A DNA stretch of 64,000 bases from positions 1 to 64,000 of IMG/VR virus record IMGVR_UViG_3300001680_000191; one strand, written 5' to 3'. The notes beneath the pieces are model-generated. The model was not told the DNA's origin and made no database searches. It saw only the letters and a list, made by a program, of their open reading frames with translations. The DNA comes from a virus. Position 1 is the stretch's first letter, and every line of letters begins with the position of its first letter. The translations under genes and the position numbers were made by a program. Shown one piece after another: positions 40,802 through 63,989 of this stretch.

Positions 40802-40830
40802 TTGACATAACACACAAAAGAGATTATAAT
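40802..40830 (+). promoter_or_regulatory. Sigma70-type promoter for groEL
   Basis: TTGACA (40802-40807), 17 bases, TATAAT (40825-40830); GAGAGG precedes ATG 40852. Consensus boxes suggest strong expression. Confidence 0.82.
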
Positions 40831-42447: not shown

Positions 42448-42672
42448 ATGCGACAAGGGGACTTAGTACATATTCCACAAGGGGTCACTCTCTTCGGTTT
42501 TGATAGCGCAATACTGGACAAGACAGAGAAACCAACAGTGGGAGTATTCCTTGAGGAAACAACTCTTAACGGCTGGCTTAGCGGAACTTATACGATCTAT
42601 GCTCTCGGCCGAGAAGCAGTCGTGAAAAAAAGACACGTATACCCAATGGGAGAAAATAATGGCCCTAGTTAA
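42448..42672 (+). CDS. Small SH3-like protein, distant relative of the K array
   Basis: 74 aa, directly after the groEL stop. Begins M-R-Q-G-D-L-V-H-I-P-Q-G, the same G-D-L-V turn as the K1-K27 proteins, followed by K-P-T-V-G-V-F-L-E-E and a V-V-K-K-R-H-V-Y-P strand. It probably has the same small beta-barrel fold, outside the array and without the V-I-S-E-S-R tail. Overlaps the next gene by 14 bases. Role next to GroEL unknown. Confidence 0.6.
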   Translation: MRQGDLVHIPQGVTLFGFDSAILDKTEKPTVGVFLEETTLNGWLSGTYTIYALGREAVVKKRHVYPMGENNGPS

Positions 42673-53645: not shown

Positions 53646-53894
53646 GTGGAATTTAAACGCGGAAATTTGATACGGTGGGTGGTGGATCATAATGCATATG
53701 AAGCCTCCGACGACGTTTTAAGGGGTATCAGCCCTAATTATAGACATGGGATTGTCATGGAAGTATCGAATAAAGATCCAACTGCCGTGATGGTTTTTTG
53801 TTATGATTGCAAAAAGAAAAGGGAGGGCAATTGGATGATACTCGATGCGGCACACGATAGACTTGAAATTTTGAGTGGTGAATCCGATGGCTAA
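53646..53894 (+). CDS. Small SH3-like protein, relative of the K array
   Basis: 82 aa, GTG start. F-K-R-G-N-L-I-R-W-V-V-D followed by H-G-I-V-M-E-V and V-M-V-F-C-Y-D, W-M-I-L-D-A-A-H-D-R-L-E-I-L-S matches the K pattern (G-D-L-V, G-I-V, V-x-V-x-W, L-x-V-I-S) with more divergence. Likely an ancestral or separate member outside the array. Overlaps the next gene by 8 bases. Confidence 0.5.
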   Translation: MEFKRGNLIRWVVDHNAYEASDDVLRGISPNYRHGIVMEVSNKDPTAVMVFCYDCKKKREGNWMILDAAHDRLEILSGESDG

Positions 53895-54259: not shown

Positions 54260-54898
54260 ATGTCAATGGAACAAAAAATTACTGAAACTCTTTCAAGGTC
54301 GGTCTGCGGTGGATGGGATCGTGGCTTTTTAGAATCTATCCTTGACCAACTTGCCAAGGGTCGCAACCTATCAATCAAACAAAAACAAAGCATAGGCAAA
54401 GTATTGGCGCGTAACGGCGATGACGCGCAGGGAGTTCACGACAACTGGCAAACTGAATATATTAAGAAATATAAAAAAGATGGAATCGTGCTGGCCACAT
54501 ATCATTCCCGGCAGCCTTATTATAAGCCAATGGCCGCAGACATTTTAGCAGACAAAGTGCCGGAGTATAAAAAGTTTCTCCGCATGTATAATAATAAGTA
54601 TTCCCGCAAGGTTCTTGCAGCCCACACACAGGCGCCACGTTATGCGGTAAGCACCCATATACAGGGGAGAACCAATCTGAATGCCTACAAAGACATTGAG
54701 ATAGATAGTGTAGCGTGGACTACTCAATCGGCCGTCGTGGAAAAGTTCAAAAAGCATGGCGGGTTCATAATGGAGATTCGCCCTGAAATATATTCTCATG
54801 CCAAGGGTTCTAAACGATACAAGATTTTACCCATAGGCGCTACAATACCTCTTATTATTGAGGAACGACACCTGAAACTACATCGTAAGACCAAATAG
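54260..54898 (+). CDS. Unknown 212-aa protein
   Basis: 212 aa under its own promoter. N-terminal half helical (L-E-S-I-L-D-Q-L-A-K-G-R-N-L-S-I-K-Q-K), second half basic with P-R-Y-A-V-S-T-H-I-Q-G and a R-R/K-rich end (R-H-L-K-L-H-R-K-T-K). A nucleic-acid-binding role is plausible from charge. No family recognised. Confidence 0.45.
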   Translation: MSMEQKITETLSRSVCGGWDRGFLESILDQLAKGRNLSIKQKQSIGKVLARNGDDAQGVHDNWQTEYIKKYKKDGIVLATYHSRQPYYKPMAADILADKVPEYKKFLRMYNNKYSRKVLAAHTQAPRYAVSTHIQGRTNLNAYKDIEIDSVAWTTQSAVVEKFKKHGGFIMEIRPEIYSHAKGSKRYKILPIGATIPLIIEERHLKLHRKTK

Positions 54899-54913: not shown

Positions 54914-55147
54914 GTGTATCCTCCACGCTTTCAATCCGGTACTTTCGTTCGATGTGTCTATGACTTCATGGATTTTTATACCTATATTTATGACGATGTT
55001 GACGCGACAGATTACACTCACTACGGTCTTGTGATCCGCGCCGACCCCGAGTTTTTAGATTTTATGGATGAATATGTTTATGAGGTTTTGTGTGTGGACG
55101 GGATTAAGAGGCATTTTATGGAGTCAGAAATCGTAGAAGTTATGTAA
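54914..55147 (+). CDS. Divergent K-family-like small protein
   Basis: 77 aa, GTG start. F-Q-S-G-T-F-V-R-C-V-Y-D-F replaces K-V-G-D-L-V, then Y-G-L-V-I-R-A, V-L-C-V-D-G and a final E-S-E-I-V-E-V-M. Strand order fits the K barrel. It sits just before the tRNA-Leu promoter. Acidic overall. Confidence 0.4.
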   Translation: MYPPRFQSGTFVRCVYDFMDFYTYIYDDVDATDYTHYGLVIRADPEFLDFMDEYVYEVLCVDGIKRHFMESEIVEVM

Positions 55148-55196: not shown

Positions 55197-55282
55197 GGCT
55201 GATTGGTGGAACGGTATACACAGGAGACTTAAAATCTCCCGCCCGTTCGGGCTTGCGGGTTCGAGTCCCGCATCAGCTACCA
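55197..55282 (+). tRNA. tRNA-Leu (anticodon UAA)
   Basis: 86 bases with long variable arm (class II). Acceptor GGCTGAT pairs with ATCAGCT (first pair G-U), anticodon stem GGAGA/TCTCC around CTTAAAA, T-stem TGCGGG/CCCGC. CCA is encoded at 55280-55282. Reads UUA, a codon used in this AT-leaning genome. Confidence 0.88.
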
Positions 55283-55542: not shown

Positions 55543-55701
55543 ATGGATTTTAGTATTGGTGATATTGTGAAACATATTGAAGCTGGCAAGATTGGCACGG
55601 TAAGGCTGATCGACGGTGTGGCTGTCTGGGTATACTGGGGGTGCGGGTCGCTCGATCACACCAACTATATGCAGCTTGAAATACTTGACACGGCTGTATG
55701 A
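55543..55701 (+). CDS. K1: small SH3-like protein
   Basis: 52 aa, starts M-D-F-S-I-G-D-I-V-K-H, with I-G-T-V and V-W-V-Y-W as the later strands. It is the most diverged of the first block and has no V-I-S-E-S-R end. Overlaps K2 by ATGA. Fold is inferred from the pattern shared by the array (G-D-L/I-V, G-I/T-V, V-x-V-x-W, hydrophobic end). Confidence 0.6.
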   Translation: MDFSIGDIVKHIEAGKIGTVRLIDGVAVWVYWGCGSLDHTNYMQLEILDTAV

Positions 55702-55919
55702 TAAGAGTAGGCGATCTGGTAAAATACATTCCGAGTCCCTCTGCCACATTTAAGTGGGAGAGGTACACGGATGCGTATAAAGCCCTTCCTGGCGTGATTC
55801 TACGCGAAGTGAAAGCCAAGGGCACCACTACGCGCCGATTTGAGATACGCTGGCACGACGGCCAGCTATCAGAAGAATGGATAAGTTTTCTGGAACCCTT
55901 TGACAACTCTTTGACTTGA
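55698..55919 (+). CDS. K2: small SH3-like protein
   Basis: 73 aa beginning I-R-V-G-D-L-V-K-Y-I-P. An insertion of ~20 residues follows the first strand (A-T-F-K-W-E-R-Y-T-D-A), then G-V-I-L-R-E and F-E-I-R-W-H-D-G. The end (F-L-E-P-F-D) lies at the next promoter. Coupled to K1 by a 4-base overlap. Confidence 0.6.
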   Translation: MIRVGDLVKYIPSPSATFKWERYTDAYKALPGVILREVKAKGTTTRRFEIRWHDGQLSEEWISFLEPFDNSLT

Positions 55920-55944
55920 CTTGGGGCGGTTTCGGTGTTATATT
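55916..55944 (+). promoter_or_regulatory. Promoter for K3
   Basis: TTGACT (55916-55921), 17 bases, TATATT (55939-55944); a second overlapping TTGACT starts at 55911. Followed by ATAAGAGTAAGGAGAG leader. Confidence 0.6.
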
Positions 55945-55966
55945 ATAAGAGTAAGGAGAGGAAGAA

Positions 55967-56161
55967 ATGAGCCCTGAAGAAATGAAAGCGCGCCCCGTGC
56001 GATTTATCGTCGCTGGTGATATGGTACACGAAAATATAGGAACCTTTGGCGAATGGATCGGGCTCGTCATTGATGTTGATCAGCGTACAGGGACAGCCAA
56101 GATTCTCAGGCGAGGGAAAATCATCGAAAGAAGTGATCACGGTCGCTGGAATGTTGTTTAG
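55967..56161 (+). CDS. K3: small SH3-like protein
   Basis: 64 aa. Has A-G-D-M-V-H-E-N-I after a longer N-terminus, then I-G-L-V-I-D-V and A-K-I-L-R-R-G-K. The expected W-x-D-G is replaced by R-R-G-K. It has its own promoter and stands alone. Membership in the family is a little less sure than for those with K-V-G-D-L-V. Confidence 0.5.
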   Translation: MSPEEMKARPVRFIVAGDMVHENIGTFGEWIGLVIDVDQRTGTAKILRRGKIIERSDHGRWNVV

Positions 56162-56191
56162 ACTCTTGACAATCACTTGACAGGATTGCCC

Positions 56192-56220
56192 TTGCTACCT
56201 GTGTCCCACTATGTTATATT
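56192..56220 (+). promoter_or_regulatory. Promoter for K4 operon
   Basis: TTGCTA (56192-56197), 17 bases, TATATT (56215-56220), followed by ATAGGTATAGAAAGGAG. A second TTGACA lies at 56177, 15 bases upstream. Confidence 0.6.
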
Positions 56221-56242
56221 ATAGGTATAGAAAGGAGAAAAC

Positions 56243-56416
56243 ATGATCGAAGTTGGAAGTATTGTAGAGAGCATCGGCTTTGTGCAAGGGCACAACAAGT
56301 CAAACCACGGGCTTGTCATTAGCCTGATGGCAGACGGCAAGATCGCTCGCGTGTTCTGGATGGCTACGCAGCAGAGCGGCTTTTGCTCAGTTAAAGATTT
56401 GAAGGTGATAACATGA
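56243..56416 (+). CDS. K4: small SH3-like protein
   Basis: 57 aa, M-I-E-V-G-S-I-V-E-S then H-G-L-V-I-S-L and R-V-F-W, ending L-K-V-I-T. ATGA overlap with the unrelated gene 56413, where the last codons (V-I-T) precede ATGAAAGT as in the array junction. The D of G-D-L-V is Ser here. Confidence 0.55.
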   Translation: MIEVGSIVESIGFVQGHNKSNHGLVISLMADGKIARVFWMATQQSGFCSVKDLKVIT

Positions 56417-56760
56417 AAGTTTGGGTTATGCAAGGAAGCTATGAAGGCGAGTTGTTTAGCAGCGTACACCTGACTCAGAAAGGTTGCGCCATGGCGTGTA
56501 TTGCTGATATAATGGAGTTCTTGGATATTGACGACGAAGCATCGATGCTCGATGCGATACAAGACAGACAGGTATACGAGGCTCCCGTTGGAGAAAAAGA
56601 CGATATTGCGAAGCCTATTGAGTGGGACCAAGAGAAACTGAAAGAAATGACGAGCGAGCAGCTTTGGAAGATTTTTGCTGAGTGGTCCGAGATCAGTTGG
56701 GATCGAATGGCAGATCGTAGCTATAATCTCGACGCAAATCCTGTGGAGATTCAAGCATGA
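56413..56760 (+). CDS. Unknown protein, paralogue of the next gene
   Basis: 115 aa. V-W-V-M-Q-G-S-Y-E-G-E-L-F-S-S-V-H-L-T then K-G-C-A-M-A-C-I-A-D-I; acidic helical middle, ends with a W-D-R-M-A-D-R motif. The next gene (56757) is a diverged copy of the same layout. Coupled to K4 and to 56757 by 4-base overlaps. Confidence 0.5.
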   Translation: MKVWVMQGSYEGELFSSVHLTQKGCAMACIADIMEFLDIDDEASMLDAIQDRQVYEAPVGEKDDIAKPIEWDQEKLKEMTSEQLWKIFAEWSEISWDRMADRSYNLDANPVEIQA

Positions 56761-57062
56761 TGAACATTTGGGTAGTACGACAGACATGCACAATGGAACA
56801 CGACACCTATCTCTCCACGCATATAACGGAGAAAGGCGCGCTGATCACCGCCATTAAAATAGTGCGTGAGGATCTGACAGACGGATTCGATGAGGATGAG
56901 CTTGAAGATATGCGATCAGGCATGCCCCACCATCCCGAAGAAGATTTGATGCAGTACGACAGCAAACAACTACGGGGCATTGTTAACGACTGGTGGGAGT
57001 ATGGCTTTGATATGAATGAACACGTACAATACCAGATACATCAAACACAGGTGGTAGGATGA
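56757..57062 (+). CDS. Unknown protein, paralogue of the previous gene
   Basis: 101 aa. I-W-V-V-R-Q-T, L-S-T-H-I-T-E-K-G-A and a W-W-E-Y-G-F end mirror the layout of the 56413 protein (W-V-x-Q, S-V-H-L-T-x-K-G, W-x-x-x), indicating an old tandem duplication. Overlaps both neighbours by 4 bases. Confidence 0.5.
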   Translation: MMNIWVVRQTCTMEHDTYLSTHITEKGALITAIKIVREDLTDGFDEDELEDMRSGMPHHPEEDLMQYDSKQLRGIVNDWWEYGFDMNEHVQYQIHQTQVVG

Positions 57063-57295
57063 CAGCACTTAAAGTTTTTATTTTGGTGGGAACGATAGAT
57101 TCTCACGATGGTCAGTTTGCGACAGTCGAACTTAATCTAAATCCAGCAACGAATGGTGGCCCCGCGATGGCGGTGCTGCCCGTGTCTGCGTTTCCATGCG
57201 AGATCAAGGAAGGGAAAGTGTTTTATGTAGTTAAACTTTCCGAGCTGGAAGATGCTGTTATCATTTGCCAAAAGGAGCCTGATGAAAATAGGTGA
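57059..57295 (+). CDS. Unknown small protein ending in an array junction
   Basis: 78 aa, beta-rich (F-I-L-V-G-T-I, V-F-Y-V-V-K-L-S) with no G-D-L-V start, so not a K protein. Its last residues D-E-N-R-stop are the shadow of the K5 start (ATGAAAATAGGTGA, 14-base overlap), the same junction that joins K genes. This suggests its 3' end was set by recombination with an array junction. Confidence 0.5.
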   Translation: MTALKVFILVGTIDSHDGQFATVELNLNPATNGGPAMAVLPVSAFPCEIKEGKVFYVVKLSELEDAVIICQKEPDENR

Positions 57296-57476
57296 TTTGG
57301 TAAGGTTTGAAAGTGTCTTGAACGATGATATGGATCGTTATCAAGAAGCACATGGCTTGGTGGTGAAGATGTCTAAGACTGGACACGATACAGAGTCAGC
57401 ACAGGTGTTGTTTAGCAACGGAGAAACTGGATGGCTTGATACTCAAAGATTGGTGGTGATAAATGAAAGTAGGTGA
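57282..57476 (+). CDS. K5: small SH3-like protein
   Basis: 64 aa, true start ATG 57282 (M-K-I-G-D-L-V-R-F-E-S) after AAAGGAGCC; a longer frame upstream is not needed. Then H-G-L-V-V-K-M, A-Q-V-L-F-S-N-G-E and R-L-V-V-I-N-E-S-R. Overlaps K6 by 14 bases; because K6 starts with ATG, its tail reads I-N-E-S-R. Confidence 0.75.
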   Translation: MKIGDLVRFESVLNDDMDRYQEAHGLVVKMSKTGHDTESAQVLFSNGETGWLDTQRLVVINESR

Positions 57477-57684
57477 CTTAGTTAAACTTCCGTCCTCGCG
57501 TGGAGCATCGTTCCGCGCTGGGCTTATTGTTGATTTTGTTGAAAAGAAATGCTGGCGCACAGAAGAACTTGGCATCAAGGTAGACTGGCGCAAGATCGAT
57601 CCAGAGCCTCACGCGGTTGTGTTGATTAACGGTAACCGCCGGACCATTCCGTTGACAGACTTGGAACCTATTGATGAAAGCTAG
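57463..57684 (+). CDS. K6: small SH3-like protein
   Basis: 73 aa, M-K-V-G-D-L-V-K-L-P-S then A-G-L-I-V-D-F and I-K-V-D-W. The central loop is longer than usual and contains A-V-V-L-I-N-G-N-R. It ends D-L-E-P-I-D-E-S and overlaps K7 by 11 bases in another frame. Confidence 0.72.
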   Translation: MKVGDLVKLPSSRGASFRAGLIVDFVEKKCWRTEELGIKVDWRKIDPEPHAVVLINGNRRTIPLTDLEPIDES

Positions 57685-57880
57685 CGGCGCCCCCAGCATC
57701 GGTGATCTTGTTGTCGCACTCTACGATGTGGAGCGCGGCATTTCTTGCGCTGGATTGGTGATGGAGACTAAGGGAATCGAATGTAATGTTCGGTGGTTAT
57801 CCGCAAGTTATCCTATCGGATGGTGGCAGCGTTCAGCCCTAAAAGTTATCAGCCCAAGCGGGAAGACCAAAAAAGTTTAA
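57674..57880 (+). CDS. K7: small SH3-like protein
   Basis: 68 aa from ATG 57674. K-A-S-G-A-P-S-I-G-D-L-V-V-A has a few extra N-terminal residues before the core, then C-A-G-L-V-M-E and C-N-V-R-W-L. Ends with a basic K-T-K-K-V and is followed by a promoter, closing the first block. Confidence 0.68.
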   Translation: MKASGAPSIGDLVVALYDVERGISCAGLVMETKGIECNVRWLSASYPIGWWQRSALKVISPSGKTKKV

Positions 57881-57911
57881 CGCACTTAACAATCACTTGA
57901 CAACTTAGAGG

Positions 57912-57940
57912 TTGACTAACACCCGTTTGGGTGCTATATT
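57912..57940 (+). promoter_or_regulatory. Promoter for the K8-K17 block
   Basis: TTGACT (57912-57917), 17 bases, TATATT (57935-57940), then ATAGGTATAGAAAGGA. A second TTGACA starts at 57897, 15 bases upstream of the first box. The spacer contains an ACCC/GGGT hairpin. Confidence 0.65.
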
Positions 57941-57964
57941 ATAGGTATAGAAAGGAAGAAATAT

Positions 57965-58174
57965 ATGAAAGTCGGTGACCTTGTGATGTTTGAAAGTGAC
58001 GTTCCCAAATCCCAGCGGTTCTGGACTGGCGAATATGTCAGAACAGGCATTGTTGTTGCTGAGTTATCCGGCGATCATATCGAAGCACCCGCTGTTTCAG
58101 TATTGTGGGCATCAGGCGAACTTACTGAAAGATGTCCTCCCCGGATACTGGAGGTGATCAGTGAAAGTCGGTGA
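57965..58174 (+). CDS. K8: small SH3-like protein, first of a ten-gene block
   Basis: 69 aa, M-K-V-G-D-L-V-M-F-E-S, T-G-I-V-V-A-E, V-S-V-L-W-A-S-G and I-L-E-V-I-S-E-S-R. The final codons include GGAGGTGATC, the full Shine-Dalgarno for K9. Overlaps K9 by 14 bases. Confidence 0.78.
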   Translation: MKVGDLVMFESDVPKSQRFWTGEYVRTGIVVAELSGDHIEAPAVSVLWASGELTERCPPRILEVISESR

Positions 58175-58331
58175 TTTGGTAAGAGACGTTGAAGGCAAAT
58201 ACATCGGCATAGTTTCGCACATTGATCCTGAAGAAATCGGTGATGATGATGCGGTTATGGTTGTGTGGCTCGATGGTGATGCTTCTTGGCATACAGCAGA
58301 GTTTTTGGAGAGATTAAATGAAAATAGGTGA
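58161..58331 (+). CDS. K9: small SH3-like protein
   Basis: 56 aa, GTG start. M-K-V-G-D-L-V-R-D, I-G-I-V-S-H-I-D-P-E-E-I-G-D-D, V-M-V-V-W-L-D-G-D. The I-D-P-E-E-I-G-D stretch is almost identical to K22 in another block, so the two are close paralogues. It ends L-N-E-N-R, shadow of the K10 start ATGAAAATAGG. Confidence 0.78.
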   Translation: MKVGDLVRDVEGKYIGIVSHIDPEEIGDDDAVMVVWLDGDASWHTAEFLERLNENR

Positions 58332-58494
58332 TTTGGTAGAATCCCCCCATCATATGATTCGGGGCATTGTCACGGAAGTAGGCGATGGTGACGATAACTA
58401 TAATAACGGCCCAGCCGTGCGCGTCAAATGGCTTGACGGCGACGATTCGATAGAGTGGGCAGAGTATTTGAGGGTGATCAGTGAAGGTCGGTGA
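58318..58494 (+). CDS. K10: small SH3-like protein
   Basis: 58 aa, M-K-I-G-D-L-V-E-S-P, R-G-I-V-T-E-V, V-R-V-K-W-L-D-G-D-D and L-R-V-I-S-E-G-R. The S-E-G-R end reflects the AAG codon in K11's GTGAAGGTC start. A N-Y-N-N loop is inserted between strands 2 and 3. Confidence 0.78.
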   Translation: MKIGDLVESPHHMIRGIVTEVGDGDDNYNNGPAVRVKWLDGDDSIEWAEYLRVISEGR

Positions 58495-58651
58495 TCTGGT
58501 GAGAAGCCTTAAATCTGAGGGTGGCATGTTGGGTATTATAGTTGGATGGCATCGCCACAACCGTGAGGCGCGCCCAATAGTCCGATGGAATGACGGCAGA
58601 ATCAGTTGGGTGATGCCACATTTAGTCAAGGTAATGTGTCCAGTATTATGA
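58481..58651 (+). CDS. K11: small SH3-like protein, near-copy of K20
   Basis: 56 aa. V-R-S-L-K-S-E-G-G-M-L-G-I-I-V-G-W and P-I-V-R-W-N-D-G-R-I-S-W-V-M-P-H-L agree closely with K20, which carries a three-residue insertion. It does not end in S-E-S-R but in M-C-P-V-L and overlaps K12 by 4 bases. Confidence 0.78.
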   Translation: MKVGDLVRSLKSEGGMLGIIVGWHRHNREARPIVRWNDGRISWVMPHLVKVMCPVL

Positions 58652-58845
58652 AAGTAGGCGATCTGGTAAAGGTGGGACCACCATCGCGCCCTTTTATCAC
58701 CCATCCATTTTTCGTGAGCATCGTGTTGGAAGTCAACAAGAGCGAAAACCATCCGAATGGTTTGGGGTTAGTTAAAGTGTTGGAAGCCGGCCAAGAAGCG
58801 TGGTATCCCATTGGATGCATCGAGTTGATAAATGAAAGTCGGTGA
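58648..58845 (+). CDS. K12: small SH3-like protein
   Basis: 65 aa from ATG 58648 (a longer upstream frame exists but breaks the K pattern). M-K-V-G-D-L-V-K-V-G-P, F-V-S-I-V-L-E-V and V-K-V-L-E-A-G-Q. Ends C-I-E-L-I-N-E-S-R, overlapping K13 by 14 bases. Confidence 0.75.
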   Translation: MKVGDLVKVGPPSRPFITHPFFVSIVLEVNKSENHPNGLGLVKVLEAGQEAWYPIGCIELINESR

Positions 58846-59017
58846 TCTGGTTAAACTAAAGTGGCGAGGAAATGGTCACCCCAAGATTGGTGTGATTGTT
58901 GGTAGTTTTCAAGGTGACCTGGACTGTGAAGAATATAAAGTTTTATGGGATTGCCCGGAGTGGTCGATGGGCATGTGGAAAGAGCGTGAGTTGGTGGTGA
59001 TCAGTGAAAATAGGTGA
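58832..59017 (+). CDS. K13: small SH3-like protein, paralogue of K25
   Basis: 61 aa. V-K-L-K-W-R-G-N-G-H-P-K-I-G-V-I-V matches K25's V-K-L-K-H-Q-G-N-G-H-P-R-I-G-I-V, then V-L-W-D-C-P-E-W-S and L-V-V-I-S-E-N-R. Overlaps K14 by 14 bases. Confidence 0.78.
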   Translation: MKVGDLVKLKWRGNGHPKIGVIVGSFQGDLDCEEYKVLWDCPEWSMGMWKERELVVISENR

Positions 59018-59192
59018 TCTGGTCGAGATTGAAAAGTGGTGCAAGAACAAGTTTAGGAAAGCTATTGTTGTTCGGGTCGAAGAATGGGATCGCGAAGGCG
59101 CATGGATTAAGTATCTCGATGGCGGCCATGGCACAAGTGACAGCGGCTATGCCATGAAACGAAACTTGAAGGTGATCAGTGAAAGTAGGTGA
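59004..59192 (+). CDS. K14: small SH3-like protein
   Basis: 62 aa, GTG start, M-K-I-G-D-L-V-E-I-E-K, A-I-V-V-R-V-E and W-I-K-Y-L-D-G-G. Ends L-K-V-I-S-E-S-R over the K15 start, with GAAGGTGATC as ribosome site. Confidence 0.76.
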   Translation: MKIGDLVEIEKWCKNKFRKAIVVRVEEWDREGAWIKYLDGGHGTSDSGYAMKRNLKVISESR

Positions 59193-59358
59193 TTTGATTA
59201 AACATAGGCATGCCGAGTGGCACACAGGCATAGTCACAAAGGTTAGCCGTGACGGACCACCGGGCTTGGTGTATGTAGAGGCTTTGTGGAGTGGCGACTG
59301 GCTTAATGAACGGAGCATAGAACAACAATATCTTGAGGTGATCAGTGAAGGTCGGTGA
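59179..59358 (+). CDS. K15: small SH3-like protein
   Basis: 59 aa, GTG start, M-K-V-G-D-L-I-K-H-R, T-G-I-V-T-K-V, V-E-A-L-W-S-G-D-W. Ends Y-L-E-V-I-S-E-G-R; GAGGTGATC lies before K16's GTG. Too short to be picked up by simple length filters. Confidence 0.77.
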   Translation: MKVGDLIKHRHAEWHTGIVTKVSRDGPPGLVYVEALWSGDWLNERSIEQQYLEVISEGR

Positions 59359-59506
59359 TCTGGTTCGCGTAAATGCTCCCGTGGTGTATATCGGTATGGT
59401 TATGGTTACTAATGTGAAAGGTGGCGCTCTTGTGCGCTCGCTTGATGGCAACTATGAGTATTGGATATATGACTGGAGCGGGGAGGTTATCAGTGAAAGT
59501 CGGTGA
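59345..59506 (+). CDS. K16: small SH3-like protein
   Basis: 53 aa, one of the shortest. M-K-V-G-D-L-V-R-V-N-A, I-G-M-V-M-V-T, A-L-V-R-S-L-D-G-N and W-S-G-E-V-I-S-E-S-R. Overlaps K17 by 14 bases. Confidence 0.76.
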   Translation: MKVGDLVRVNAPVVYIGMVMVTNVKGGALVRSLDGNYEYWIYDWSGEVISESR

Positions 59507-59699
59507 TCTCATATCGTTCAAGCCAAAATCGTTCGGTGATGATGACTGGTCTAACCCCGGCATTGTACTCGACAGCTATGAGCATGATGATCGGCAAACT
59601 GGAGGCTGGAAAGACTTGATATGGATTGTATGGATCGATGGTTATAAATGTATGGTCAACCAAAGAAACGATGATGTGGTTTACTTGACAGGTTCTTGA
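59493..59699 (+). CDS. K17: small SH3-like protein, last of the block
   Basis: 68 aa from GTG 59493. M-K-V-G-D-L-I-S-F-K-P, P-G-I-V-L-D-S and I-W-I-V-W-I-D-G. The end V-V-Y-L-T-G-S replaces S-E-S-R because no K gene follows directly; a promoter starts at once. Confidence 0.74.
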   Translation: MKVGDLISFKPKSFGDDDWSNPGIVLDSYEHDDRQTGGWKDLIWIVWIDGYKCMVNQRNDDVVYLTGS

Positions 59700-59700
59700 C

Positions 59701-59729
59701 TTGACATTGGGGCAAATGGGTGTTATATT
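59701..59729 (+). promoter_or_regulatory. Promoter for the leaderless basic gene and K18-K21
   Basis: TTGACA (59701-59706), 17 bases, TATATT (59724-59729); an overlapping TTGACT lies at 59696. The ATG of the next gene (59736) is at the expected transcription start. Confidence 0.65.
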
Positions 59730-59735
59730 ATAGGT

Positions 59736-59873
59736 ATGAAGAAGAAAAAGACCAACACCCCGAAGCGCCGCAACTGGATCGCAGTCGCCGCACATTTTCG
59801 GCTCGCCGGAGCGATGAAGGATCGCAAGAAGGCAGCGAACAAAAAGGCATGCCGAGGAAAGGTGCGAGTATGA
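59736..59873 (+). CDS. Very basic 45-aa protein, candidate leaderless gene
   Basis: 45 aa, M-K-K-K-K-T-N-T-P-K-R-R-N-W, then V-A-A-H-F-R-L-A-G-A-M-K-D-R-K-K and a Lys/Arg-rich end. ATG lies 6 bases after the -10 box with no ribosome site. Not a K protein; probably binds nucleic acid. Overlaps K18 by 4 bases. Short length makes coding status moderate, but the frame fits exactly between promoter and K18. Confidence 0.55.
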   Translation: MKKKKTNTPKRRNWIAVAAHFRLAGAMKDRKKAANKKACRGKVRV

Positions 59874-60040
59874 AAATCGGTGATCTGGTGCGTATGCAAG
59901 CGAATGGAACGATATGGTTAGTTATGTGTGTTGTCGGTGACGATGCACTGTTACATAATATGAAGACCAACTATCGAATGTGGGCGACTTGGAACCTCAC
60001 ACACGATAGACTCAACTATGAAGTGATGAGCGCAGCATGA
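59870..60040 (+). CDS. K18: small SH3-like protein
   Basis: 56 aa, M-K-I-G-D-L-V-R-M-Q-A, W-L-V-M-C-V-V, then R-M-W-A-T-W-N. The second half departs from the usual strand pattern (no W-x-D-G). ATGA overlap with K19. Confidence 0.68.
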   Translation: MKIGDLVRMQANGTIWLVMCVVGDDALLHNMKTNYRMWATWNLTHDRLNYEVMSAA

Positions 60041-60213
60041 AAGTCGGTGATTTGGTAAAGAGTCGTTACGCAAGGTTTGAACTCGCTGGAGTGATGGGGG
60101 TTATCGTCAAAAATACACCCGAGTATTCCACAACCCAATATCAGGTTTTGGTGGGTGGTCGCATACGATCCTTTGCGGCGAGGCATTTGGAGGTTATCAA
60201 TGAAAGTCGGTGA
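60037..60213 (+). CDS. K19: small SH3-like protein
   Basis: 58 aa, M-K-V-G-D-L-V-K-S-R, M-G-V-I-V-K-N, Y-Q-V-L-V-G-G-R and L-E-V-I-N-E-S-R. Overlaps K20 by 14 bases (ATG start, hence N). Confidence 0.76.
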   Translation: MKVGDLVKSRYARFELAGVMGVIVKNTPEYSTTQYQVLVGGRIRSFAARHLEVINESR

Positions 60214-60379
60214 TTTGGTGAGAAGCCTTCAGAGTTATAACTCTGAAGGCGGCATGTTAGGTATTATAGTCGGCTGGAACCGCAGCCCTGCAAATCTCCC
60301 TCATATCTGCCCAATAGTACGATGGAATGACGGTAGAACCAGTTGGGTTATGCAACATTTAGTTAAGGTGGTGGTATGA
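60200..60379 (+). CDS. K20: small SH3-like protein with internal palindrome
   Basis: 59 aa from ATG 60200. V-R-S-L-Q-S-Y-N-S-E-G-G-M-L-G-I-I-V-G-W and P-I-V-R-W-N-D-G-R-T-S-W make it a near-copy of K11. The extra residues relative to K11 coincide with a 24-base perfect palindrome (60226-60249). ATGA overlap with K21. Confidence 0.77.
   Translation: MKVGDLVRSLQSYNSEGGMLGIIVGWNRSPANLPHICPIVRWNDGRTSWVMQHLVKVVV
60226..60249. repeat. 24-base perfect palindrome inside K20
   Basis: CCTTCAGAGTTA joined to its own reverse complement TAACTCTGAAGG. It sits exactly where K20 is longer than its paralogue K11, so it arose by insertion or duplication, possibly by replication slippage or template switching. 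Confidence 0.85.
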
Positions 60380-60660
60380 AAGTCGGTGATTTGGTAACAT
60401 TGTCAACATATTCGTTATGTTCAGAACCGATGTGGACATGGAAGAACAAGATTTGGGATGGTAAAAAGTCCCTTGTGGGGCTGGTTGTGTGTGTGAAAAA
60501 TAACCCACGTATCAGGCCATGGACATCTAAGAATGAAAGCACATTTTATTATATTAACTGGATGCAGAAAGATGGTCCTGCGAGCCGATTCGGAACAACA
60601 ATCTATCACGGCAGCGCGTCTGGATATTTCCTGCGTAAAGATTTGAAGTTTGTGAAGTGA
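60376..60660 (+). CDS. K21: long SH3-like protein
   Basis: 94 aa, the longest member. M-K-V-G-D-L-V-T-L-S, then a Trp-rich insertion (M-W-T-W-K-N-K-I-W-D-G), V-G-L-V-V-C-V and F-Y-Y-I-N-W. Ends L-R-K-D-L-K-F-V-K. Overlaps no K gene downstream. Confidence 0.7.
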   Translation: MKVGDLVTLSTYSLCSEPMWTWKNKIWDGKKSLVGLVVCVKNNPRIRPWTSKNESTFYYINWMQKDGPASRFGTTIYHGSASGYFLRKDLKFVK

Positions 60661-60677
60661 ACAAAAAGGAGATAAAG

Positions 60678-61022
60678 ATGCAAGTAAATGAGTTTTTTAA
60701 TACAGTTGGTTCCAACAGGAACCGACAGGTTGTGTGTGCTGATGGGTTCACCATGAGTGTGCAAGCGTTCGATGGTGGGTACTGCACACCGCGCATCAAC
60801 GACGCAGACAAGTATGAAGAAGTTGAGGTAGGCTACCCGAGCGAGCGCGAGGAACTACTGATGAACTGGGCAGAAGAACCCGACAAGCCGACACAAACGG
60901 TTTACGGATACGTGCCGGTTCAAGTGGTGACGAATGTGCTGGCAAAGCACGGCGGCATTGTTGACGGCGAGATCCCCAAGGGTGTTGCCCCAATCCCAGC
61001 AAACTTTATGGTTGACGAATAG
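60678..61022 (+). CDS. Unknown acidic protein
   Basis: 114 aa from ATG 60678, 7 bases after AAAGGAG; an in-frame GTG at 60657 is 4 bases from the K21 stop but lacks a site. V-C-A-D-G-F-T-M-S-V and D-G-G-Y-C-T-P-R then V-P-V-Q-V-V-T-N-V-L-A. No K features, no family recognised. Common-looking phage protein in the K region. Confidence 0.5.
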   Translation: MQVNEFFNTVGSNRNRQVVCADGFTMSVQAFDGGYCTPRINDADKYEEVEVGYPSEREELLMNWAEEPDKPTQTVYGYVPVQVVTNVLAKHGGIVDGEIPKGVAPIPANFMVDE

Positions 61023-61037
61023 TTGACAACTTAGGCG

Positions 61038-61066
61038 TTGACAGTGGCGCTATGCTTTGCTATATT
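61038..61066 (+). promoter_or_regulatory. Promoter for the 61090 gene
   Basis: TTGACA (61038-61043), 17 bases, TATATT (61061-61066), then ATAGGTATAGAAAGGA. Another TTGACA at 61023, 15 bases upstream. Confidence 0.68.
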
Positions 61067-61089
61067 ATAGGTATAGAAAGGAAAAAACT

Positions 61090-61299
61090 ATGACCGAGCA
61101 ACGACACCCAATCCACGCCGTAGGATCTTTGGTGCGGCACAAGAACCTTCCTGACAACCCTCTTGCGCTTGTTATAGACCATGCGCCTTGTTCAGATGGT
61201 AGCGGGATCATCGTCAGAGTGCTAAAGCCATCAAGGGGCAATCCAAGCGGTGAGTTTGTCACAGTATCTATCAGATGGGAACTTGTTTCTTCGTCCTGA
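61090..61299 (+). CDS. Divergent K-family-like small protein
   Basis: 69 aa from ATG 61090. V-G-S-L-V-R-H-K-N replaces K-V-G-D-L-V, followed by L-A-L-V-I-D-H, I-I-V-R-V-L-K and V-S-I-R-W-E-L. It has its own promoter with the shared leader cassette and no junction tail. Basic Gly-rich loop. Confidence 0.45.
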   Translation: MTEQRHPIHAVGSLVRHKNLPDNPLALVIDHAPCSDGSGIIVRVLKPSRGNPSGEFVTVSIRWELVSSS

Positions 61300-61321
61300 C
61301 ATTCACTTGACAAGAAATGGC

Positions 61322-61349
61322 TTGCACTAATAGCCATCCCGGTTATATT
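61322..61349 (+). promoter_or_regulatory. Promoter for the 61369 gene and tRNAs
   Basis: TTGCAC (61322-61327), 16 bases, TATATT (61344-61349), ATAAGAGTAAGGAG leader; a TTGACA at 61307, 15 bases upstream. Confidence 0.58.
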
Positions 61350-61368
61350 ATAAGAGTAAGGAGAAAAT

Positions 61369-61770
61369 ATGGGTTATCGTTCCGAAGTTGTTTTGTATGT
61401 GGGTCCAGAAGTGATGCCACAGTTTATGGTCGCGATGGCCAAGTCCCAAGCCGCCCGAGAGTTGTGCTTTGGCGATGCCGATCAGATGGTCAAAGATTAT
61501 GGTGACGTTAAAGGTTCGTTCCTATTTAAGTGGGGATGGCTCAAATGGTACGATAGCTTCCCTTGTGTGAACGCCATCGAGGACTTTATGGATTGGTGCG
61601 ACGGCGAGAAAGTTCCCACAGGCGAGAAAGACGAGGAAGGGAAAGATAAGACAGACCACGCCACCGAGTTTTTCAAGTTTATTCGCATTGGCGCAGAAAT
61701 GGATGACAATGAGCAGCGAGGCGATGCGTTTTGGGGTGACATTTATATCAACCGGAGCATTGAGTTTTAA
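61369..61770 (+). CDS. Unknown protein of the M-G-Y-R-S-E-V phage type
   Basis: 133 aa. Starts M-G-Y-R-S-E-V-V-L-Y-V, a pattern I associate with unnamed phage proteins. Has F-K-W-G-W-L-K-W-Y and an acidic C-terminal part; ends R-S-I-E-F. It is 11 bases upstream of tRNA-Lys and probably co-transcribed. Confidence 0.55.
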   Translation: MGYRSEVVLYVGPEVMPQFMVAMAKSQAARELCFGDADQMVKDYGDVKGSFLFKWGWLKWYDSFPCVNAIEDFMDWCDGEKVPTGEKDEEGKDKTDHATEFFKFIRIGAEMDDNEQRGDAFWGDIYINRSIEF

Positions 61771-61781
61771 GTTTGAGGAAA

Positions 61782-61857
61782 GGGACCATAGCTCAACTGG
61801 CAGAGCAAAAGGCTTTTAACCTTTAGGTTCTGGGTTCGATTCCCAGTGGTCCCACCA
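61782..61857 (+). tRNA. tRNA-Lys (anticodon UUU)
   Basis: 76 bases. Acceptor GGGACCA/TGGTCCC, anticodon stem AAAGG/CCTTT around CTTTTAA, T-stem CTGGG/CCCAG. CCA encoded at 61855-61857. Follows the 61369 gene and may share its promoter. Confidence 0.92.
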
Positions 61858-61864
61858 TTATCAC

Positions 61865-61941
61865 AGGCTCTTAGCTCAGTTGGTCAGAGCATTCCGCTCA
61901 TAACGGATCGGTCGTCGGTTCAAGTCCGACAGAGCCTACCA
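61865..61941 (+). tRNA. tRNA-Met elongator or tRNA-Ile2 (anticodon CAU)
   Basis: 77 bases. Acceptor AGGCTCT/AGAGCCT, anticodon loop CTCATAA, T-stem GTCGG/CCGAC; CCA at 61939-61941. First pair is A-U, so it is not an initiator (which has an unpaired C-A). CAU reads AUG or, if lysidine-modified, AUA; sequence alone does not decide. Confidence 0.88.
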
Positions 61942-61961
61942 CTTTTATAATAGGAGAGAAA

Positions 61962-62165
61962 ATGATTTACACAGTCATTTATGAAGAAGAAAACACAGGA
62001 AATATGGGGACTTTTACTTTCGCGGCTCAGAGGCATGACAAAAACTATGCATGGGCTGAGTTTGTTGAAAAGTATGCAGAGAAAGGGCAAGAACCGATTG
62101 CTATAATGCCCGGTCAAAGCCTCGTATATTTTATACCTGACATTTCGTTTGCAAACGTGGCTTGA
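61962..62165 (+). CDS. Unknown small protein
   Basis: 67 aa, start after AGGAGAG between tRNAs. Mixed strands and helix (V-I-Y-E-E-E-N-T, F-A-A-Q-R-H-D-K) with a hydrophobic V-Y-F-I-P-D end. No family recognised. Confidence 0.5.
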   Translation: MIYTVIYEEENTGNMGTFTFAAQRHDKNYAWAEFVEKYAEKGQEPIAIMPGQSLVYFIPDISFANVA

Positions 62166-62190
62166 CTTCGACAAGCGCCTGAGTTATAAT
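62162..62190 (+). promoter_or_regulatory. Promoter for tRNA-Arg
   Basis: TTGACT (62162-62167), 17 bases, TATAAT (62185-62190); ends 8 bases before the tRNA, so the transcript starts at about the mature 5' end. Confidence 0.7.
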
Positions 62191-62198
62191 ATAGTTAT

Positions 62199-62275
62199 GC
62201 TTCGGTAGCTCAGCTGGATAGAGCATCGGCCTTCTAAGCCGAGGGTCATAGGTTCAAGTCCTATCCGAAGTGCCA
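62199..62275 (+). tRNA. tRNA-Arg (anticodon UCU)
   Basis: 77 bases. Acceptor GCTTCGG/CCGAAGT (first pair G-U), anticodon stem TCGGC/GCCGA around CTTCTAA, T-stem ATAGG/CCTAT; CCA at 62273-62275. Reads AGA, which is frequent in the phage genes seen here. Confidence 0.9.
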
Positions 62276-62300
62276 CTCACAAACAACAAAAGGAAACAAA

Positions 62301-62525
62301 ATGTCGTATCACGATGGCTATATTAAACCAGGCTCCACAGGTATATCCGTGGTCAATCCTCTCCATGAGGTGCAGCTTAAACTCGATAAGATCACACAGT
62401 TGGTCAGTGAGTCGTCTACCGCTGAACATGAAGATGCCGGCGTTATTAGTATCGAGCACCTTAGAATGATACTGACACTTCAAAACATTCTCGACGGCAC
62501 CGACGACGAGAAAGATGTAAAGTAA
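62301..62525 (+). CDS. Unknown small protein
   Basis: 74 aa, shortly after tRNA-Arg with AAAGGAAAC before ATG. G-Y-I-K-P-G-S-T-G-I-S-V start, then a helical acidic remainder (H-E-V-Q-L-K-L-D-K-I, L-R-M-I-L-T-L). No family recognised. Confidence 0.5.
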   Translation: MSYHDGYIKPGSTGISVVNPLHEVQLKLDKITQLVSESSTAEHEDAGVISIEHLRMILTLQNILDGTDDEKDVK

Positions 62526-62537
62526 ATGTTAGTCCCC

Positions 62538-62566
62538 TTGACGCGCCCCCACATAGGGGTTATATT
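62538..62566 (+). promoter_or_regulatory. Promoter for the 62650-K24 operon
   Basis: TTGACG (62538-62543), 17 bases, TATATT (62561-62566). The leader to 62650 is ~75 bases, pyrimidine-rich with several T runs and no clear hairpin. Confidence 0.55.
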
Positions 62567-62649
62567 TATAGAGTAGGGCAAGATCCCGCGATTTTTTCTC
62601 GCCATTTTTTCTTACCAAAAATCTCTTTTCCCAACGCACAGAAAGCACA

Positions 62650-62934
62650 ATGAAAATGACACTCGTAGTAGACACGGACGACCCGAAAGGGATTGATCAC
62701 GCATGGGAAATGATTGCCATTCTTCAAAAGAAGGCTGGTCGGAACCCAACTGCGATTCGGTATACTAAAGAGTTTGGAAAGATTGAATACATTAAGTCCC
62801 TCCGCAAGTACGTGCGCGAACAGGCAGATGCACTTAAAGATGCCGACGACGATACCGTGGGTGATATTAAGGACATGCAGAGCCTTCGCAATACCAAGCA
62901 GTTTGCTGACCGTATTTTCAATGGTGAAAAATGA
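62650..62934 (+). CDS. Unknown small protein
   Basis: 94 aa. M-K-M-T-L-V-V-D-T-D-D-P-K-G-I-D strand-turn start, helical middle and acidic linker (D-A-D-D-D-T-V). Ends N-G-E-K with ATGA overlap into K22, so it is the head gene of the last K block. No family recognised. Confidence 0.5.
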   Translation: MKMTLVVDTDDPKGIDHAWEMIAILQKKAGRNPTAIRYTKEFGKIEYIKSLRKYVREQADALKDADDDTVGDIKDMQSLRNTKQFADRIFNGEK

Positions 62935-63110
62935 AAGTTGGTGATCTGGTGACATTTGAGTTTAACCCTGATAACATCGCGTCGTTGGGTATCGTTACTT
63001 GTATCGATCCCGAAGAAATCGGTGATGCAAATGAAGTCGAAGTTTTATGGAACGATGGCGATTCACGGAACCACTCAACAATCCATCTGGAGCTATTAAG
63101 TGAAGGTTAA
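62931..63110 (+). CDS. K22: small SH3-like protein, paralogue of K9
   Basis: 59 aa, M-K-V-G-D-L-V-T-F-E-F, L-G-I-V-T-C-I-D-P-E-E-I-G-D, V-E-V-L-W-N-D-G-D. Close relative of K9, 4.8 kb away. The end L-L-S-E-G-stop is shortened: K23 has K-V-K-V, as if a GTTAAA duplication introduced an early TAA. Confidence 0.76.
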   Translation: MKVGDLVTFEFNPDNIASLGIVTCIDPEEIGDANEVEVLWNDGDSRNHSTIHLELLSEG

Positions 63111-63288
63111 AGTTGGCGATCTGGTGAGAATGAAGGACACTATGTATGATAGTGATCTTGTCGGCATCGTTGTTGACAGGGACCATCATCCTAACTCTAC
63201 CCAAATAGGTATAAAATGGTTTGGAGGTTCAGGCAAAGTTGACTGGGAGCCCGAGCCATGGTTGGAGGTTGTCAGTGAAAGTCGGTGA
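63100..63288 (+). CDS. K23: small SH3-like protein
   Basis: 62 aa, GTG start, M-K-V-K-V-G-D-L-V-R-M-K (two residues more than usual), V-G-I-V-V-D-R, I-G-I-K-W-F-G-G. Ends L-E-V-V-S-E-S-R over K24 with GGAGGTTGTC as ribosome site. Confidence 0.76.
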   Translation: MKVKVGDLVRMKDTMYDSDLVGIVVDRDHHPNSTQIGIKWFGGSGKVDWEPEPWLEVVSESR

Positions 63289-63424
63289 TCTGGTGTTTGA
63301 TAGATACCATAAAAAATACAGCATCGTTGTGGATGTGTGGGGCAGCAAGAAAACGGGGAGGTTCGTTAAACTTAACCAGGGATACAAAGTATCTGCCGAA
63401 TATATGAGGGTTGTTAGTTCTTAA
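63275..63424 (+). CDS. K24: shortest SH3-like protein
   Basis: 49 aa from GTG 63275. M-K-V-G-D-L-V-F-D-R-Y, S-I-V-V-D-V and R-F-V-K-L-N-Q-G. Ends M-R-V-V-S-S-stop before a new promoter, i.e. the S-E-S-R tail is missing when no K gene follows, as expected if the tail is dictated by the next start. Confidence 0.74.
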   Translation: MKVGDLVFDRYHKKYSIVVDVWGSKKTGRFVKLNQGYKVSAEYMRVVSS

Positions 63425-63445
63425 CAATCTCTTGACGGGAAAAAC

Positions 63446-63474
63446 TTGCGTTAACCGCTGCGCGGTGTTATAAT
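63446..63474 (+). promoter_or_regulatory. Promoter for K25, start codon at transcription start
   Basis: TTGCGT (63446-63451), 17 bases, TATAAT (63469-63474); TTGACG at 63432 is a second box. ATG of K25 follows 6 bases later with no room for a ribosome site. Confidence 0.6.
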
Positions 63475-63480
63475 ATATAT

Positions 63481-63666
63481 ATGAAAGTTGGTGATCTGGT
63501 AAAACTCAAACATCAAGGTAATGGCCACCCACGTATCGGTATCGTTAAAAGCGTGTCGGTGCGTTCTCTTGAAGAAAGGGTATGCACGTGTATGTGGGAT
63601 AAGCCATTGTGGGATTACGTTCAGTATAATGAAGGCGAGTTGGAGGTTGTTAGTGAAAGTAGGTGA
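63481..63666 (+). CDS. K25: small SH3-like protein, candidate leaderless gene
   Basis: 61 aa. M-K-V-G-D-L-V-K-L-K-H-Q-G-N-G-H-P, close to K13, then C-T-C-M-W-D-K-P and L-E-V-V-S-E-S-R. The ATG is at the predicted +1 of its promoter, so it may be translated without leader. Overlaps K26 by 14 bases. Confidence 0.76.
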   Translation: MKVGDLVKLKHQGNGHPRIGIVKSVSVRSLEERVCTCMWDKPLWDYVQYNEGELEVVSESR

Positions 63667-63820
63667 TCTGGTGAGATACAAAGGCATTTTAGGCATTGTT
63701 ACTGCGCCTTGCATAAAGCGATGGGCTAAATCTGGTGATGTGTGGGTGCTGTGGAACAACAGGAGCAAGCCCATCGTGGAGTGCAGCGGCTTTATGGAGT
63801 TGGTAAATGCAAGTCGGTGA
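63653..63820 (+). CDS. K26: small SH3-like protein
   Basis: 55 aa from GTG 63653. M-K-V-G-D-L-V-R-Y-K-G-I-L-G-I-V-T has almost no loop between strands 1 and 2, then W-V-L-W-N-N-R. Ends E-L-V-N-A-S-R, because K27 starts ATGCAAGTC. Confidence 0.76.
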   Translation: MKVGDLVRYKGILGIVTAPCIKRWAKSGDVWVLWNNRSKPIVECSGFMELVNASR

Positions 63821-63989
63821 CTTAGTTAAACATTTTCTGACCGAGCAGATCGGCGTCATAGTTTTTATCTCGCAACATAACGGGCTTCCGATCCGTGTGC
63901 TGTGGACAACGCAGGGCGATTCCCTGTTCGGTCCCGGCAACAAAGAATGGTGTGGAGAGAATCAGTTGGATCTCTTGACAACTGCTTGA
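63807..63989 (+). CDS. K27: small SH3-like protein
   Basis: 60 aa, M-Q-V-G-D-L-V-K-H-F, I-G-V-I-V-F-I and I-R-V-L-W-T-T. Ends L-D-L-L-T-T-A. Directly after the stop a further TTGACA begins, so another transcription unit probably starts at the right edge of the window. Confidence 0.74.
   Translation: MQVGDLVKHFLTEQIGVIVFISQHNGLPIRVLWTTQGDSLFGPGNKEWCGENQLDLLTTA

Follow-up and report, generated by a model that had tools for sequence, protein, structure and literature searches.

A clade-wide family of small, predicted SH3-like barrels, stitched gene to gene by overlapping junctions, in uncultured myophages

Why would a phage keep dozens of copies of one small gene, nearly all of them different from each other? 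The question is raised by the IMG/VR virus record IMGVR_UViG_3300001680_000191 (73,630 bases), whose first 64,000 bases are referred to here as the window. A preliminary description of this DNA had reported, in the last part of the window, a tandem array of at least 27 short genes (K1 to K27). The answer that we prefer, and which in our judgement stands about evenly between right and wrong, is that they belong to a clade-wide multigene family of SH3-like (KOW/Tudor-type) barrels, forming an exchangeable panel of specific binders of host proteins for takeover or counter-defence, probably made early.

All 27 reported open reading frames (ORFs) are present where they had been placed, on the plus strand, and most ORFs of the array start with MKVGDLV or nearly so. 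Allowing at most 3 mismatches, the window has 22 occurrences of the start box ARTGAAAGTNGGTGAYYTNGT, where 0.04 would be expected. The relatives used for the family work were found through a MoxR-type AAA ATPase (AAA_5, E 1e-8), encoded among the array copies at record positions 66031-67113 (L009:11031-12113), which has 131 relatives in IMG/VR; 80 of these loci were kept, as pieces of at most 21 kb oriented by MoxR. A family profile was built from the members, iterated on the 80 loci, and then rebuilt with the record itself and a near twin of it, L047, excluded. This profile from other contigs only matches 40 of the 637 ORFs of the record at an expectation value (E) of 0.01 or better, all on the plus strand, with 27 of the 27 reported copies among them (the weakest at 55967, E 0.0093). 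None of 637 shuffled and none of 637 reversed control ORFs was matched. The copies in the window are given below with their lengths in amino acids (aa) and overlaps in nucleotides (nt); the basis is the profile match unless another is named.

55543-55701, + strand: K1, predicted SH3-like copy, 52 aa (profile E 1e-4)
55698-55919, + strand: K2, 73 aa, overlaps K1 by 4 nt
55967-56161, + strand: K3, 64 aa, divergent, weakest of the 27 (profile E 0.0093)
56243-56416, + strand: K4, 57 aa
57282-57476, + strand: K5, 64 aa, allele patch differs in the near-identical phage L047
57463-57684, + strand: K6, 73 aa, 14-nt overlap junction
57671-57880, + strand: K7, 69 aa, start TTG 57671 or ATG 57674, allele differences in L047
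57965-58174, + strand: K8, 69 aa, behind a promoter-like element, allele patch differs in L047
58161-58331, + strand: K9, 56 aa, 14-nt overlap junction
58318-58494, + strand: K10, 58 aa, 14-nt overlap, five-stranded barrel predicted by AlphaFold2 (pLDDT 90.3)
58481-58651, + strand: K11, 56 aa, 14-nt overlap, 71% identical to K20
58648-58845, + strand: K12, 65 aa, 4-nt overlap
58832-59017, + strand: K13, 61 aa, 14-nt overlap
59004-59192, + strand: K14, 62 aa, 14-nt overlap
59179-59358, + strand: K15, 59 aa, 14-nt overlap
59345-59506, + strand: K16, 53 aa, 14-nt overlap
59493-59699, + strand: K17, 68 aa, 14-nt overlap
59870-60040, + strand: K18, 56 aa
60037-60213, + strand: K19, 58 aa, 4-nt overlap, cluster spans 18 sources
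60200-60379, + strand: K20, 59 aa, 14-nt overlap, cassette absent in L047 (pairwise comparison)
60376-60660, + strand: K21, 94 aa, 4-nt overlap, predicted barrel with a helical insertion at residues 11-28 (profile and model)
62931-63110, + strand: K22, 59 aa
63100-63288, + strand: K23, 62 aa, GTG start
63275-63424, + strand: K24, 49 aa, 14-nt overlap
63481-63666, + strand: K25, 61 aa
63653-63820, + strand: K26, 55 aa, 14-nt overlap
63807-63989, + strand: K27, 60 aa, 14-nt overlap, cluster spans 13 sources
53646-53894, + strand: distant member (profile E 4e-5)
54914-55147, + strand: distant member (profile E 0.0022)
61090-61299, + strand: distant member, behind a promoter-like element (profile E 7e-5)

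The three distant members had been proposed together with a fourth, at 42448, which the profile does not match. The array itself is real and larger than first described, with its 40 profile-matching ORFs in the 73.6-kb record: past the window, matches continue at record positions 67148, 67335, 69198, 69968, 70322, 70467, 70633, 70793, 71928, and 72074, and a box-bearing copy at 70122 lies beyond the reach of the profile. The copies do stand in rows, but the tandem order is not unbroken, with other ORFs at 56413-57295, 60657-61022, and 61369-62934 and three tRNAs interrupting the array at 61782-62275. The iterated search of the record and the 80 loci returned 1144 of 1152 matches on the plus strand and 8 on the minus strand; as the loci were oriented by MoxR, the family therefore has one orientation.

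Neighbouring genes are joined in a characteristic way. An overlap of exactly 14 nt, a class that depends on the automatic choice of start codons, joins 385 of the 1035 neighbouring pairs, and one of 4 nt joins 63, while 98 are 21-200 nt apart and 409 more than 200 nt apart (370 and 60 of 1003 pairs for the two overlap classes without L047). Of the 26 steps from K1 to K27, 14 have the 14-nt overlap (13 with K7 starting at ATG) and 4 the 4-nt overlap. The profile of the 14-nt class is TGGAGGTgATCA(A/G)TGAAAGTCGGTGATyTGGT, and the whole junction extends over ~30 nt. The Shine-Dalgarno sequence lies within the L-E-V-I codons of the upstream gene, which encode its last strand, and the TGA stop of this upstream gene falls among the codons for M-K-V-G-D of the gene that follows; read in another frame, the next start thus gives the tail (S/N)ESR. 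The junction between K8 and K9 serves as the example:

58149-58180, + strand: junction box, Shine-Dalgarno sequence GGAGGTGAT in the K8 L-E-V-I codons, then the K9 GTG start, with the K8 TGA inside the K9 start

The hydrophobic end that had been described as shared by the copies is thus present as LEVI(S/N)ESR, but where copies overlap it is at the same time the Shine-Dalgarno sequence and start codon of the next gene. The codon for the seventh-last residue, a Glu, is GAG in 270 of 281 genes with the 14-nt overlap, compared with 60 of 92 genes without it and 1200 of 2634 in gene bodies (counts exclude this record and L047), and the upstream last strand therefore carries a second, regulatory message. 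By general knowledge, such a layout would couple the translation of neighbouring copies. It is this gene-stitching junction, with a Shine-Dalgarno sequence inside the codons of the last strand, that is new here.

The record encodes a tail sheath, a DnaE-like DNA polymerase, and a ribonucleotide reductase, and the virus is therefore a myophage. At least one family match was found in 80 of the 80 MoxR-relative loci. By single-pass counts at E ≤ 0.01, and in records that are often fragments, 3-32 copies are present in each of the 20 records behind MoxR loci that were searched (20/20), and 5-32 in each of 17 further records, which were picked by the junction pattern and so contain copies by construction. 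A relative of the DNA polymerase of the window occurs in 30 of 33 records tested, at 41-74% identity (100% in the near twin). The junction pattern itself was found in at least 119 stretches of viral contigs and in 5 stretches of a genome collection, all in records titled as metagenome-assembled genomes (MAGs); the five genomes have 20, 16, 9, 3, and 12 profile matches. These were taken as phage pieces in bins, which was partly checked, and a bacterial origin of the family was set aside. In one of them (L213, CP070664.1, a MAG titled WOR-3 chromosome) four array copies stand beside bacterial-looking genes, and a run of N is close by; the stretch is probably a fragment of phage DNA joined within the bin. 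Among 50,697 records of named phages no match was found to 25 kb of the record DNA, to two of its proteins, or to the array copy at 69198; every MoxR relative is below 60% identity, the DNA polymerase relatives (best 25 of 1276) are at ~31% or less, and the best tblastn E value for K10 is 0.1. The clade is therefore one without close isolates in that collection. A marine origin is likely, on the slender basis of record titles such as TaraRedSea and of IMG sample numbers. The array marks a clade of uncultured myophages.

The proteins are predicted to be small barrels. The AlphaFold2 model of K10 (120 alignment rows) has five strands, with a predicted local distance difference test score (pLDDT) of 90.3. 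The model of K21 keeps these strands around a helical insertion at residues 11-28 (pLDDT 86.5). These two confident models, together with their matches to SH3-like folds, agree with the small SH3/KOW-like barrel suggested from the sequence, and a five-stranded SH3-like barrel is supported as the predicted fold of the family, with two copies modelled. Structural matches of K10 include Spt5 (Z 8.6, root-mean-square deviation 1.4, 52 aligned), photosystem I chain E (Z 8.3), MutS2 (Z 8.1, deviation 1.3, 50 aligned), NusG (Z 7.5), and R67 DHFR (Z 7.5), with ribosomal proteins also among the high ones. The parts of Spt5 and NusG aligned with K10 are presumably their KOW domains. The best match of K21 is the tandem Tudor of UHRF1 (Z 6.5). 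Spt5 is among the high matches of K10, yet other SH3-like proteins tie with it within 1 Z; no structural match stands out, and therefore the fold is supported and no function follows from it. The best PDB match by sequence profile is DNMT3B (E 0.0056), in a segment that we take to be the PWWP domain. Among viral structure models (BFVD) the best E value is 2.2e-4, and Gp30.5 of phage TuIa matches K10 with E 4.2e-4 and template-modelling (TM) scores of 0.82/0.74. At E ≤ 0.1, any one Pfam family is matched by at most 3 of 120 members. The KOW profile (PF00467) matches 1 of the 120 (E 0.014) and 0 of 8 members or candidates of this record, and the DUF2158 profile (PF09926) 1 of 120 (E 0.04), a DUF2158-labelled protein being also a structural match. 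The only PHROG family reached at E ≤ 0.001 is phrog_1690, by 3 of the 120. Pfam and PHROG searches of neighbour and fusion proteins returned no function for the family.

The conserved core comprises G4, D5, L6, V7, G16, I17, V18, V36, W38, and L51-I54, whereas positions 9-14, 22-33, and 39-50 have an entropy of 3.1-4.2 bits, near background between paralogues (979 unique rows for both). From the predicted pattern of strands and loops it follows that the variable positions would be exposed.

The KOW-like matches give weight to the possibility that the copies are nucleic-acid-binding factors, or factors associated with the ribosome or RNA polymerase, all serving one machine and specialised for different sites or RNAs. 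We consider this unlikely, though the likeness of K10 to Spt5, NusG, ribosomal proteins, and MutS2 (the last on the ribosome) speaks for it. The unrelated photosystem I chain E and R67 DHFR follow closely behind in the same comparison, the KOW profile finds a single member, and the predicted isoelectric points of the copies within this phage extend from 4.1 to 10.8, which disfavours a uniform nucleic-acid binder.

Several longer proteins have a barrel-like C-terminal part joined to other N-terminal parts (L031:6209-6712, L027:9375-9890, L055:7994-8497, L056:6802-7305, and L038:9304-9885). Three of them were searched; none matched a PHROG family, and no Pfam family scored better than E 0.02. 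They are possible clues to function.

The copies are under purifying selection. The set used for selection and clustering comprises 1011 of 1121 members, after removal of L047, ORFs cut by locus ends, ORFs of 400 nt or more, and matches with E ≥ 1e-3. The ratio of nonsynonymous to synonymous rates (omega) was calculated for reciprocal-best orthologue pairs with the first and last 8 codons dropped and 70 identical-protein pairs left out of the identity bands. It is 0.187 at 60-75% identity (431 pairs, with a synonymous divergence, dS, of 1.43, near saturation), 0.139 at 75-90% (169 pairs), and 0.093 at 90-99.9% (62 pairs). Of the exact start boxes, 330 of 331 are followed by 33 or more further codons of open frame, compared with 88 and 39 of 332 in the shifted frames. 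That the genes are functional, as their retention had been taken to imply, is thus supported, and neutral remnants are rejected by omega values of 0.09-0.19 and by a single exact box in 331 that opens fewer than 40 codons. Positive selection was also considered and discarded, as omega exceeds 1 in 0 of 426 orthologue pairs with dS of 0.05-1.5. In the variable columns omega is 0.193 (60-75% identity) and 0.141 (75-100%), close to the 0.159 and 0.153 of the core columns; positions that look random between paralogues are therefore held within each orthologous line.

The gene content of the array is open between phages. Across 60376-73630 L047 has 3 differences from the record, and all 38 difference columns in 55858-60219 fall in three patches, 57276-57356, 57738-57754, and 58049-58156, inside or just before K5, K7, and K8 (5, 2, and 5 amino-acid-changing codons and 4, 1, and 10 silent ones, respectively). 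L047 is without exactly one cassette, K20 (176 bp), and both breakpoints lie in the identical 20-nt start box. The samples behind the record and L047 are possibly related; chimeras of strains formed during assembly could then account in part for the three patches, and the K20 difference, lying at a 20-nt repeat, might in principle reflect a collapse by the assembler. The rest of the indel events were seen in other contigs. Clean indels were sought in 76 locus pairs (some loci being pieces of one contig), and the resulting 25 rows reduce to 8 distinct events. Five of the 8 involve family genes, and 4 of these 5 are whole cassettes (1, 1, 1, and 3) at junctions, including 148 bp for one cassette (L031, 9145 to 9293), 540 bp for exactly three (L031, 5053 to 5593), and 150 bp for one between L033 and L061, where the downstream junction is with a non-family gene having the same type of overlap. 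The three indels without a family gene are of 223 bp (array interval of L052), 561 bp (L059), and 240 bp (L073).

Adjacent copies in L031 share 79% identity, and paralogues are adjacent more often than expected (23 of 96 pairs vs 10.6%), while recent duplicates are few, with a same-locus paralogue above 70% identity for 10 of 1011 copies. The share of copies with a counterpart of at least 45% identity was compared with that of other 60-99-aa ORFs, a set that includes spurious ORFs. It is 0.07 for the family vs 0.07 for the other ORFs where MoxR is 75-80% identical, 0.12 vs 0.11 at 80-85%, 0.13 vs 0.37 at 85-90% (6 ordered pairs), and 0.57 vs 0.50 at 90-100% (6 pairs). A turnover faster than that of other small genes is clear only in the 85-90% band with its 6 ordered pairs, and was not adopted as a general statement. 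For ORFs of 100 aa or more the share at 75-80% is 0.44, though the identity limit set for these was 30%.

Such precise changes suggest that the array could be largely a by-product of recombination, in which the junction repeats ease duplication and most copies have minor or housekeeping roles in the phage. Cassette-precise indels, the excess of adjacent paralogues, and a turnover like that of other small ORFs are all in line with it. The rarity of recent duplicates, the box-bearing copies that are almost never broken, and the purifying selection on orthologues are not, and we rank this explanation just after that of factors serving one machine, as also unlikely.

At 45% identity the 1011 members fall into 461 clusters, 305 of them singletons, and a same-locus paralogue is detectable by BLAST for only 157 of the 1011, counted within locus pieces of at most 21 kb. 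This very high diversity is what would be expected if the copies were interchangeable decoys, or variants akin to antigens, with selection acting only on their difference from one another, and so is the confinement of the L047 differences in 55858-60219 to three copies (12 amino-acid-changing and 15 silent codons). However, orthologues are under purifying selection with the variable positions included, and some clusters are widely shared, those of the copies at 69198, 70793, and 67148 spanning 30, 22, and 20 sources. We regard decoys as improbable; with the variable positions constrained among orthologues, a panel of separate specific binders is favoured over them. Selection for variety, as originally proposed, therefore stands in one respect, since the copies make up a highly diverse repertoire that changes from phage to phage, and is not borne out in the other, since no scored orthologue pair has an omega above 1 and the variable positions are constrained like the core.

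The array lies in a region of promoter-like elements. The pattern TTGAC-N15-19-TATAWTAT occurs 11 times on the plus strand and 0 times on the minus strand of the record, and 0 times in 20 Markov-1 sequences; 9 of the 11 are at 55.9-72.6 kb. The related loci have 139 on the plus and 2 on the minus strand. The elements among the listed copies are:

55916-55946, + strand: promoter-like element TTGAC-N-TATAWTAT
57912-57942, + strand: promoter-like element, before K8
59701-59731, + strand: promoter-like element, between K17 and K18
61038-61068, + strand: promoter-like element, before the distant member at 61090
62162-62192, + strand: promoter-like element, before tRNA-Arg

The consensus resembles a sigma-70 promoter, which the host enzyme could read at once, and the array is probably expressed early, from such housekeeping-type elements. 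One further element, at 40802, is just upstream of a GroEL-like chaperonin (recognised by eye) at 40852-42447.

From these data we infer a set of translation-coupled, early, protein-binding products with a role in takeover or counter-defence. The copies would be made from short coupled operons in a region of strong housekeeping-type promoter-like elements. Each would keep its own conserved surface, most likely for binding one particular host protein, for example a part of RNA polymerase, the ribosome, a protease, or a defence protein, and the whole set would act as a panel for host takeover and counter-defence. The junction box would couple translation and double as a short repeat at which cassettes can be lost, gained, or duplicated without breaking a gene. 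For many proteins on one small scaffold that are distinct, intact, selected, and coupled in a promoter-rich region, and whose set differs openly from phage to phage, specific binders forming a panel are a better account than decoys, remnants, or the cofactors of one machine. A bolder version, conceivable to us but rather more likely wrong than right, is an evolving repertoire of binders on a minimal scaffold with a freely diversifying surface, in which one 30-nt element would be ribosome-binding site, start, last strand with stop, and recombination site, and phages would swap binders cassette by cassette to match host targets and defences. That the barrels are parts of the virion or of its assembly is hardly credible: small barrels are common in virions and the record encodes a tail sheath, but the array is at the opposite end of the record from it, in the company of tRNAs and promoter-like elements, and gene content changes more quickly in the array than among ORFs of at least 100 aa (for which the identity limit is looser).

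Several observations weigh against the binder panel. No profile match to any protein of known function was obtained. Only 26 of 143 promoter-like elements are within 60 nt of a family start, and they therefore serve the region and not the family alone. The remaining family indel, of 209 bp, removes or adds a lone copy (e.g. L073:2514-2705) with its flanks, away from any junction box. In 6 of 7 identity bands the family turns over at about the rate of the other small ORFs in its loci, which may be ordinary turnover of accessory genes, and with no scored pair above an omega of 1 no ongoing arms race is visible. If the binder panel is correct, it would account for a large unannotated gene block in these uncultured myophages. 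It would also supply hundreds of natural binders, all built on one scaffold of ~50-70 residues, that could be screened against host and defence proteins, and it would show how a gene family can grow and shrink in whole, intact, translation-coupled units.

The surroundings contain other genes of note. A DUF2201 VWA/metallopeptidase-like protein (record 67614-68834, L009:12614-13834) is encoded among the array copies. The 289-aa protein at record 64950-65819 (L009:9950-10819) has two CxxCxxxGHxxxxC-like zinc-knuckle motifs by eye and matches Pfam zf-C2H2_10 (E 2e-7). Two adjoining small genes, 56413-56760 and 56757-57062, look like paralogues by eye and match neither the array profile nor Pfam; the same likeness by eye, with no Pfam or PHROG match, is seen between 54260-54898 (212 aa, before the array) and record 64053-64862 (269 aa, within its range). 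Four tRNA genes (Leu, Lys, Met, and Arg) are beside or among the array, at 55197-55282, 61782-61941, and 62199-62275.

In the literature searched, which was covered in part and judged by titles and the beginnings of abstracts, no report of such an array was found. On the bolder version, the shuffling of cassettes would resemble that of integrons, but with no integrase. African swine fever virus has multigene families of tandem, diverged paralogues whose copy number varies between strains; the arrangement and the copy-number changes are alike, and the proteins and hosts are different. We know of no overlapping start/stop junction in those families. The family phrog_1690, of unknown function, is reached by 3 of 120 members at E ≤ 0.001 and missed by 117. 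Phages TuIa and X20 are, we assume, of the T4 type. Gp30.5 of TuIa and a DUF2158-annotated protein of X20 are small SH3-like structural matches in BFVD, and YorP of Bacillus subtilis (2heq) is another small SH3-like match; none of the three comes with a function in these comparisons, and sequence similarity is weak. MotB of T4 is an early, DNA-binding protein with a predicted KOW/SH3-like N-terminal domain, and is similar in that respect; it differs in having two predicted domains and, in the sections of the report drawn on here, in being one gene beside one relative (MotB.1) and not part of an array (PMC7827196). Nip (phi3T_120) of phage phi3T, which binds and blocks the TIR NADase SpbK, likewise has predicted SH3-like domains, two of them, but according to the portion of the source used it is a single gene for 279 aa with a predicted HU-like domain (PMC11984713). 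The host takeover module of SPO1 is a phage gene cluster as well, with 26 genes acting on various host processes and with Gp53 as an adaptor-like modulator of the ClpCP protease; the array genes are paralogues on one scaffold with a repeated junction, whereas those of SPO1 are not described as one family in the part of the report consulted (PMC6873191). In kind, we place the array with phage accessory takeover clusters of this sort, and not with KOW, DUF2158, or any named family.

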